A stretch of DNA of 64,000 nucleotides, from positions 2,532,279 through 2,596,278 of the forward strand of contig JAOSKN010000002.1 in assembly GCA_027493525.1 (NCBI GenBank), written 5' to 3'. The DNA is from Planctomycetota bacterium. Lineage in GTDB: Bacteria > Planctomycetota > SZUA-567 > H5-PLA8. Numbering within the stretch: position 1 is the stretch's first letter; each line of letters begins with the position of its first letter. The notes below the pieces were generated by a model. It did no database searches. It had not been told where the DNA came from and saw only the letters and a program-made list of their open reading frames with translations. Positions 50,994 through 62,661 of this stretch are shown here, in pieces. Position numbers and translations under genes: made by a program.

Positions 50994-51040
50994 GCGGGCG
51001 GGACGCCCACGCGAGCCGGCGAGGACGCCGGCGCTACGAA
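50994..51040 (+). repeat. Double-hairpin repeat copy 2
   Basis: gcgggcgggacgcccacgcgagccggcgaggacgccggcgctacgaa. Confidence 0.8.
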
Positions 51041-51159
51041 AGGCACGGGGCAGCTTCGCTGACCCGTGGCACGACGCACGCGGCTGCGCCGATCCGTGGC
51101 ACGCGGAGGCGGCGGCGTGGTAGGATGCGTTCGGCTTCCCAAACCCCGAGGAACCTGCC

Positions 51160-52185
51160 ATGCCCGCGACTGTCGAGCTGCCCGCCGCCACGCCCGCCGA
51201 GATGGGCTTCAGCGCATCGATCCTGGACGAGCGGCTCGGCCCGCTGCTGGGCGAGCACAAGACCGGCGCGGCGGCGCTGCTGGTGAAGGGCAGGCTGGTC
51301 TGGGAGCGCTACTGGGACGGGCACGGGCCGGCGACGAAGTTCGACGTGTACTCGATGGGCAAGGCTTACGCGGCGGCGGCCATCGGGCTGCTCGCCGACG
51401 ACGGGCTGCTCTCGCTGGACGACCCCGCCTGCAAGTTCCTGCCGGAGTGGAAGCGCGAAGGGAACCGCGAGATCCTGATCAAGCACCTGCTGACGATGAC
51501 CTCGGGGCTGAAACTGGAGTACGAGAAGTTCACCTCCGAGCCGGACCCGACGGCGGCGACGCTGGCGTGGCCGGTGGAGCACCGGCCCGGCACGGTCTGG
51601 TCCTACGAGCAGGCGACCGCGCACGCGCTCTGCCCGATCGTCGTGCGCGTCTCGGGCAAGCAGCCGATCGAACTCTTGCGCGAGCGCGTCCTGGGGCCGA
51701 TCGGGGCGGGGGCGGTGGAGTGGCTGCGCGCGGCCAACGGGGACTGCAAGACCTGGCGCAGCACGCTGACGAGCGCGCGCGACGTCTGCAAGTTCGGCTG
51801 GCTGCTGCTGAAGGACGGCCGCTGGGGCGAACGGCAACTGCTGAGCGCCGAGTTCTGCCGGAAGATGCGCACCCGCGACCCGCTGTTCCGGAACGTCGTC
51901 TGCGATCCGCGGCAGCAGGAGCTCAAGGCGCGCAATTACGGCTACCTGCAGTTCCTCAACGTGGACGGCATGTGGCCCGACGCGGACCCGCGCGTTTTCG
52001 CGCCGACCGGCGCGTACGCCAACCTGTGCCTGATCGATCCGGTCCGCGAGACGGTGCTGGCGCGGCTCGTCACGCCGGCCGACGTGGCCGATCACAAGCC
52101 GTACTCGAACAAGCTGGATAGCCTCAGCGGCGGGACGAACGAGATCTGGAAGGTGCTGCGGGAAGCAGTAGTTGGTGAACAGTGA
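51160..52185 (+). CDS. Serine hydrolase (beta-lactamase class C family)
   Basis: KFDVYSMGKAYAAAAIGLL (SxxK), HLLTMTSGL, WSYEQATAH (YxN-like position). Confidence 0.85.
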   Translation: MPATVELPAATPAEMGFSASILDERLGPLLGEHKTGAAALLVKGRLVWERYWDGHGPATKFDVYSMGKAYAAAAIGLLADDGLLSLDDPACKFLPEWKREGNREILIKHLLTMTSGLKLEYEKFTSEPDPTAATLAWPVEHRPGTVWSYEQATAHALCPIVVRVSGKQPIELLRERVLGPIGAGAVEWLRAANGDCKTWRSTLTSARDVCKFGWLLLKDGRWGERQLLSAEFCRKMRTRDPLFRNVVCDPRQQELKARNYGYLQFLNVDGMWPDADPRVFAPTGAYANLCLIDPVRETVLARLVTPADVADHKPYSNKLDSLSGGTNEIWKVLREAVVGEQ

Positions 52186-52201
52186 ACGGTGAACAGTAAC
52201 G
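52174..52201 (+). repeat. Heptad array ggtgaac-agtgaac-ggtgaac-agtaacg
   Basis: Contains the stop codon (52183-52185) of the serine hydrolase gene. Confidence 0.8.
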
Positions 52202-52291
52202 GCGGAGGTTAGGAAATAAGAGTCAAGGGTCGAAAAATCAAAAAGACAAAAGTCAAAGGTCCAAAACTAAGAGAATCGAAAACTAAGCGTC

Positions 52292-52375
52292 ATTGGTCAT
52301 TGGTCATTGGTCATTGGTCATTGGTCATTGGTCATTGGTCATTGGTCATTGGTCATTGGTCTACGGTCTACGGTC
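52292..52375 (+). repeat. Heptad array (ATTGGTC)x10 followed by (TACGGTC)x2; STRR2-like
   Basis: Counted directly: ten perfect copies 52292-52361 then two variant copies. Confidence 0.97.
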
Positions 52376-52392
52376 AACGCTGCGGCGAGGGG

Positions 52393-53013
52393 TTAGAGGC
52401 CGCGCAATTCCTTCCAATGGGTTTTGGGGCGCAGGGCGGGCGAACCCTTGGCGCAGAGGGGGCAGGCTTTCGGGTCCCAGGAAGTGATGCTCAATTCGAG
52501 GAGCGATTTGATCGCGAAGCCGCCGAGTTCGGTCTGCCCGCTGCGGTTGACGAGGCAGAGGACCATGGGCAGGAGCTTGAGGGTCTCGCCGCCGGCCGCG
52601 CGGAGGCCCGCGATGGTCTTGAGCGTGCTGCCGCCGGTGGAGATGACGTCTTCGACGACCAGCACGGTTTCGCGGGGCTTGAGTTCGAAGCGTTTGAGCG
52701 CCATGCCGTCGCCGTCTTTTTCGGTGAAGCCTGCGCGGGTTTCGAGCCGCTCGGCGACGGCGTGGGCGAAGGCGATCGCGCCGAAGGCCGAGCCGATGAC
52801 CCAGTCGGCGCGCTCGTTCGGGAGCTTGCCCGCGAGGCCGCGCTCGTCGCGGAGGATGCGATTGAGCAGGTTCGGGCGCTGCGTGACGAAGGTGCAGTTG
52901 ACGAAGCCGTCGGAGTGGAGCCCGGAGGTGAGCTCGGCGTGGGGGCGGACGGGATCCCCGCCGTGGAGCCAGACGGCGCCGGCGCGCTTGAATTCGTCGA
53001 GCCAGTCCACCAT
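52393..53013 (-). CDS. pyrE: Orotate phosphoribosyltransferase
   Basis: HAELTSGLHSDGFVNC, VLVVEDVISTGGSTLKTI (PRPP loop). Confidence 0.88.
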   Translation of the reverse strand: MVDWLDEFKRAGAVWLHGGDPVRPHAELTSGLHSDGFVNCTFVTQRPNLLNRILRDERGLAGKLPNERADWVIGSAFGAIAFAHAVAERLETRAGFTEKDGDGMALKRFELKPRETVLVVEDVISTGGSTLKTIAGLRAAGGETLKLLPMVLCLVNRSGQTELGGFAIKSLLELSITSWDPKACPLCAKGSPALRPKTHWKELRGL

Positions 53014-53077
53014 GGCGCACCTCCTTGAGGGTTCGTTTTTAGCGGCGCGCGCGGCGTGGCGCAAGGGGAGCGGGAAG

Positions 53078-53119
53078 CTGTGATCTGTAATCTGTAATCT
53101 GTAATCTGTGAACTGTGAT
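53078..53119 (+). repeat. Heptad array ctgtgat-(ctgtaat)x3-ctgtgaa-ctgtgat
   Basis: Read directly. Confidence 0.95.
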
Positions 53120-53169
53120 CCATAAATGGTGGCGGAGGTGTCAAAGAAATTAGAGCAAGTGCCGCCGTT

Positions 53170-53218
53170 ACAGATTACAGATTACAGATTACAGATTACA
53201 GAATACAGATCACAGTTC
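53170..53218 (+). repeat. Heptad array (acagatt)x4-acagaat-acagatc-acagttc; reverse complement of the 53078-53119 array
   Basis: Read directly; inverted relative to the neighbouring array. Confidence 0.95.
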
Positions 53219-53296
53219 ACTTCTATAGACGCGCCTCGACCGCGGCGTTAGAGTACTCGGCCATTCATCCAGGCACGCAACGGGAGGCGCACTCAC

Positions 53297-62547: not shown

Positions 62548-62589
62548 CAGTAAACAGTAAACAGTAAACAGTGAACAGTGAACAGAGAC
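62548..62589 (+). repeat. Heptad array (cagtaaa)x3-(cagtgaa)x2-cagagac
   Basis: Read directly. Confidence 0.95.
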
Positions 62590-62633
62590 AGCAAACTGCA
62601 TGCATTCGACGTGTTGGGTCTTCAACCGTTCGC

Positions 62634-62661
62634 CGATTACAGATTACAGATTACAGATTAC
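62634..62661 (+). repeat. Heptad array cgattac-(agattac)x3
   Basis: Contains the stop codon of the thiO-like gene (62651-62653). Confidence 0.92.

Follow-up and report, generated by a model that had tools for sequence, protein, structure and literature searches.

A perfect TTGGTCA heptamer array in a planctomycete genome is one of many intergenic tandem repeats of period seven

Tandem arrays of heptamers are a known kind of bacterial repeat, and the ATTGGTC array described here adds one planctomycete case. The published unit of the cyanobacterial STRR2 repeats is TTGGTCA; a literature search retrieved no paper that prints this heptamer as STRR2. In Nostoc, 7-bp STRRs able to form hairpins near the 3' end of a gene have been described, and a role in termination has been proposed for them (PMC2670836). 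According to papers that cite the 2007 survey of Mrazek et al. (PMC4679880, PMC4692102), period 7 is the most abundant among repeats of 5–11 nt in many bacteria, and slippage at a 7-nt polymerase contact has been proposed as the cause. The reason for the exact period 7 of mid-length tandem repeats in bacteria, noted since at least 2007, is still unexplained. Direct TAACTGA repeats of marine Beggiatoaceae occupy intergenic positions at many loci, occur also in Cyanobacteria and Bacteroidetes and are sporadically distributed among close relatives; they consist of a single unit in 2–6 copies, mostly located just 5' of start codons (PMC4679880). The GGGNATC heptamers of Xanthomonas and Nostoc are dispersed and intergenic, differ in length between related species and have a unit that forms a G-quadruplex (PMC4692102). 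No paper on heptamer arrays in Planctomycetota was retrieved by a literature search, an outcome that gives only weak grounds for believing that none exists.

The window, i.e., the whole stretch of 64,000 nt analysed here, stems from a 7.46-Mb genome in six contigs and is located at the end of the 2.6-Mb contig C2. A sequence-only reading had described ten ATTGGTC units, equal to the TTGGTCA unit in shifted phase, and two TACGGTC units following them, and the letters bear out both statements (Table 1). Tandem Repeats Finder (TRF) reported period 7, 10.4 copies and 100 % matches at 52289–52361. Ten period-7 segments were observed in the window as compared to none in a Markov control; the length of the ATTGGTC/TACGGTC array is far beyond chance, as is characteristic of heptanucleotide simple sequence repeats and STRR-type repeats. 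The neighbours had been named correctly as serine hydrolase and pyrE. Since these two genes are convergent, the intergenic array lies between two 3' ends. Two ORFs with VIGHWSL repeats (52293–52487 and the longer one in Table 1) overlap pyrE, reading into it or antisense to it; both were rejected by a codon-usage gene finder and are, therefore, by-products of the repeat, as previously assumed. The 7-nt period ascribed to the preceding A-rich tract is present, but weak (match of 0.51 at lag 7, with p 0.0025 by shuffling for this lag alone), and lag 15 scores higher (0.55, the best lag; p 0.0065 over all lags). This tract probably represents decayed heptamers. Overlooked so far were the heptamer run at the hydrolase stop codon and about ten further heptamer arrays in the window. 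Rfam and tRNA scans of the whole window yielded no matches.

Table 1 Features of the window around the ATTGGTC array and of selected further heptamer arrays
Feature	Position	Strand	Evidence or remark
Serine hydrolase/beta-lactamase-like gene, 3' end toward array	51160..52185	+	PF00144, E 6e-37
GTGAACA-type heptamer run GTGAACAGTGAACGGTGAAC	52175..52197	+	Overlaps serine hydrolase stop codon
Degenerate A-rich tract, weak 7-nt period	52216..52285	+	AAGAGTC, AAGGGTC, AAAAGTC, AAAGGTC
Perfect (ATTGGTC)x10, TTGGTCA in shifted phase	52292..52361	+	Exact by script assertion, no mismatch; TRF score 146
(TACGGTC)x2 variant units, right edge of array	52362..52375	+	Exact by script assertion; GGTC retained, ATT changed to TAC
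Spurious ORF of VIGHWSL repeats, continuing antisense to pyrE	52300..53028	+	By-product of repeat
pyrE-like phosphoribosyltransferase gene, 3' end toward array	52393..53013	-	PF00156, E 1.3e-6
CTGTRAT array, left hairpin arm, pyrE–Gfo/Idh gap	53078..53120	+	Fold z -14
ATTACAG array, right (inverted) arm of CTGTRAT hairpin	53168..53220	+	Repeat finding, fold
CAGTAAA/CAGTGAA array and (A)CAGATTA array	62548..62661	+	Same genome-wide heptamer population

The host had been supposed not to be a cyanobacterium, and its own 16S rRNA gene agrees: it harbours perfect targets for probes EUB338-II and PLA886, which are planctomycete signatures and exclude Cyanobacteria as host. The accompanying view that an STRR2-type array is exceptional outside Cyanobacteria has to be abandoned. 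When 84,980 species genomes were scanned for four consecutive TTGGTCA units, at least 117 stretches were detected, and the matches listed represent no fewer than seven phyla besides Cyanobacteria (Planctomycetota, Bacteroidota, Acidobacteriota, Verrucomicrobiota, Pseudomonadota, Chloroflexota and Patescibacteria, next to Kapaibacterium). Within the host phylum, TTGGTCA arrays were present in 7 of 392 genomes and the reversed-sequence control in one. TTGGTCA is no hallmark of Cyanobacteria, and regarding its arrays as a cyanobacterial marker is mistaken, which is relevant wherever mixed samples are to be fingerprinted with STRR primers. While the abundance of the unit in Cyanobacteria would agree with horizontal transfer from a cyanobacterium, this origin is extremely improbable: no cyanobacterial flank is attached to the array, TTGGTCA occurs in at least eight phyla among the matches listed, many heptamer arrays with other units lie all around, and a perfect 7-mer lacks the length to convey an ancestry signal. 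By our own arithmetic, heptamers fall into roughly 1,170 possible classes; with this number and the many genomes rich in arrays, no transfer is required for one unit to recur in several phyla. Heptamer arrays in general are unlikely to result from misassembly, because they recur in isolates and at orthologous positions; the ATTGGTC copy number given here is that of the assembly.

The array is part of a large population. Sampled stretches of the genome (~0.94 Mb, with home-made gene calls) formed the basis of a census, and periods were compared across 864 kb from three contigs. In these 864 kb, 53 non-coding tandem arrays have period 7, and each of the remaining periods between 2 and 13 accounts for at most 4; periods 14, 21 and 28 are harmonics of 7. 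Most heptamer arrays (53 out of 64) are located in non-coding DNA. Their density amounts to 50 per Mb in unselected stretches of contigs C1 and C3 (20 arrays in 400 kb) and to 95 per Mb around the window; genome-wide, hundreds of seven-letter arrays are dispersed between genes. They belong to about 22 unit classes, of which AATCTGT, AACTCGG and AACAGTG are the commonest with 7 arrays each, and the probability that two arrays share one class is 0.061, as compared to 0.0019 for random intergenic heptamers (~30-fold). Upon self-comparison of 464 kb, the heptamers alone were repeated and the array flanks were not. Sharing of unit classes without similarity of flanks is not explained by independent growth from random seeds; the excess points either to mutual seeding of the arrays or to favoured units, and selection for given units, e.g., as protein binding sites, could likewise generate it. 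Four consecutive copies of GTGAACA are present here and absent from all 21 other genomes tested. In the sister species (pyrE 74 % identical), array density is about 9 per Mb, and most arrays belong to the AAAATCC/GATTTTG unit family. Array density thus differs about fivefold or more between two species of one genus, as does the unit family, and comparing the two renders the period-7 question testable.

Compared with cyanobacterial STRR2, the ATTGGTC array is alike in its tandem arrangement, intergenic position and TTGGTCA heptamer; it differs in its planctomycete host and in lacking a hairpin partner of the same unit, and other units are far commoner than TTGGTCA in this genome. It shares period 7 and intergenic location with the long heptanucleotide repeats surveyed by Mrazek et al. 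(2007); in contrast to these, to the extent that the survey is cited in PMC4679880 and PMC4692102, period 7 is near-exclusive here, arrays of this genome have units in common and inverted arms are frequent. The TAACTGA repeats of Beggiatoaceae (PMC4679880) are also intergenic heptamer arrays at many loci, whereas the present genome employs many units, chiefly at gene 3' ends. Dispersed intergenic heptamers, some of them as inverted pairs in convergent gaps, are common to the GGGNATC repeats (PMC4692102) and this genome; TTGGTCA contains GG only and no GGG runs, and thus falls outside the G-quadruplex type.

We regard the array as probably a selfish heptamer microsatellite that is expanded by slippage, reseeded from existing arrays and tolerated between genes; most likely, it has no dedicated function at its locus. 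Single arrays would lengthen and shorten through 7-nt slippage or unequal recombination, and existing arrays may seed new ones by template switching or short-homology recombination, as suggested by the shared units. Fold-back copying would create and homogenise inverted arms. Arrays disturbing genes or promoters would be purged by selection, those remaining being presumably neutral, and period 7 may be due to some feature of the machinery for replication or repair and not of the sequence. Its perfection suggests that the ATTGGTC array is probably recent.

Change by whole units is evident from TTGGTCA arrays of other genomes: orthologous arrays in three genome pairs (L022/L081, L031/L042 and L103/L133) differ by 21, 7 and 35 nt, respectively, with their flanks intact. 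In the pairs L091/L122 and L026/L034, arms or spacer are wholly replaced, indicating that such gaps turn over quickly. At one site of related cyanobacteria (L091:6568–6636 and its L122 orthologue), the inverted arms have swapped unit types (TTGGTC left and GACAAA right versus ATTTGTC left and GACCAA right), and the orientation of the spacer is kept. Orthologues of pyrE within the family are 61–74 % identical; since the neighbouring genes of pyrE differ in the sampled relatives, the syntenic site of the ATTGGTC array is absent there and no empty site is available for comparison. In another genus, one and the same place 5' of pyrE is occupied by (TTTTACG)x5 in one species (G006) and by about 1.5 degenerate units in a second (G002).

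Heptamer arrays are mainly located at gene 3' ends and seldom at divergent promoters. An array within 70 nt was found at 12.9 % of the gene 3' ends, as compared to 0.9 % in the sister species, and arrays of period 5, 6, 8, 9 or 10 at no more than 0.8 %. The distance to the stop codon is at most 10 nt in 27 of 75 cases measured, and between tandem genes the array is closer to the stop codon in 24 cases and to the next start in 7 (n = 31). Arrays also tend to occur as inverted pairs. Eighteen of the 53 non-coding arrays (34 %; control ~7 %) have an inverted partner, either internal or at a distance of up to 200 bp, both arms of one pair being scored separately, and a single one (2 %; re-pairing control ~6 %) has a direct partner at such a distance. 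Twenty adjacent array pairs comprise 9 inverted and no direct matches (3.0 and 0.1 with shuffled partners), and TTGGTCA arrays of other genomes have an inverted partner in 37 and a direct one in 7 of 136 cases. Accordingly placed hairpins would suit 3'-end elements whose transcripts fold to terminate transcription or to protect mRNA, as proposed for the cyanobacterial STRRs of Nostoc (PMC2670836). Such a role agrees with the stop-side bias, with strong hairpins (z < -3 versus shuffles) in 18 of 63 array blocks as compared to 3 of 69 control gaps, and with the neighbouring CTGTRAT/ATTACAG pair (53070–53225; -83.8 kcal/mol, z -14). It is nevertheless unlikely for the arrays at large: about 70 % of the blocks lack a strong hairpin, strong hairpins also occur away from 3' ends (5 of 9 divergent blocks), and the closest relative mostly does without arrays at its gene 3' ends. 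The ATTGGTC array itself is a lone direct array without an inverted partner of its unit, for which neither a fold (RNA z +0.8; DNA z +1.1) nor a terminator-like site or T-run was detected; even the neighbour at 53070–53225 offers the stem only of a stem-loop terminator. A 3'-end role is, therefore, possible for the hairpin-forming minority and unsupported at the ATTGGTC array. The CTGTRAT arms of the neighbour display mirrored unit order and occupy the gap from which pyrE and the Gfo/Idh gene diverge.

Repeats of this abundance might also be REP-like elements that are mobilised by a transposase of the Y1 (RAYT/IS200) type or produced by a reverse transcriptase. The genome contains 22 Y1_Tnp matches (6–9 in relatives) and one reverse transcriptase, and its GGTTGC-type arrays have in common a palindromic core of ~65 nt, TGAGGTGCTTTC...GAGTTCCAAAG, with inverted heptamer arms on either side. 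Full and partial copies of this core are located at C1:1018848, C1:1028696 and C2:1269562–1300514; no copy was found in relatives. Nevertheless, this origin is very unlikely. Only 3 of 12 windows at Y1 genes contain arrays, about as expected from the genome-wide density; no array lies beside the reverse transcriptase gene, and the array-poor sister species (G001) has three reverse transcriptases. A shared flanking core, considered as a sign of a mobile element, is missing around most arrays with the GGTTGC type as sole exception; the ATTGGTC array possesses neither core nor shared ends, and common non-repeat ends combined with transposase association, as typical of transposable elements, were not found. 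The Y1 proteins include an IS200-type transposase of 155 aa, with six equal-scoring and several near-equal copies (C1:2207072 and others), and a RAYT-like protein of 196 aa with about nine copies, one of which was examined and is flanked by palindromes. Integron attC sites were considered for the array-rich island described below and rejected, as the GGTTGC cores lack the GTTRRRY/RYYYAAC pattern upon inspection by eye.

This island, at C2:1.2614–1.3006 Mb, carries 2.86 arrays per non-coding kb as compared to 0.43 elsewhere (6–7 times denser). It contains a phage-like cluster (C2:1261400–1300600) which codes for a terminase large subunit (phrog_2, E 1.5e-42) and a major head protein (PF20036, E 3.6e-24) and may represent a domesticated phage or a gene-transfer-agent cluster. 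A collinear cluster in the sister species (C1:2531000–2557000; capsid 91 % identical) contains several degenerate GATTTTG-type arrays, some of which abut the same stop codons as here. In a third genome (G003:C228; capsid 79 % identical), ten arrays with still other units are present in 9.2 kb, and more distant capsid homologues have one array or none nearby. As many gaps of the cluster carry arrays in all three of these related genomes, each of which has its own unit, a trans-acting process specific for 7 nt may be envisaged that rewrites arrays in a lineage-specific unit, keeping position and period while replacing the sequence; we consider this rather improbable. Other repeat types pile up in the cluster as well, and the simplest reading is that it tolerates repeats of every kind. 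GC-rich dispersed repeats such as GCGAGCCGGCGAGGACGCCGGCGCTACG and GACCCGTGGCACG, found in the window at 51000–51117, likewise occupy intergenic gaps, those of the array-rich island included.
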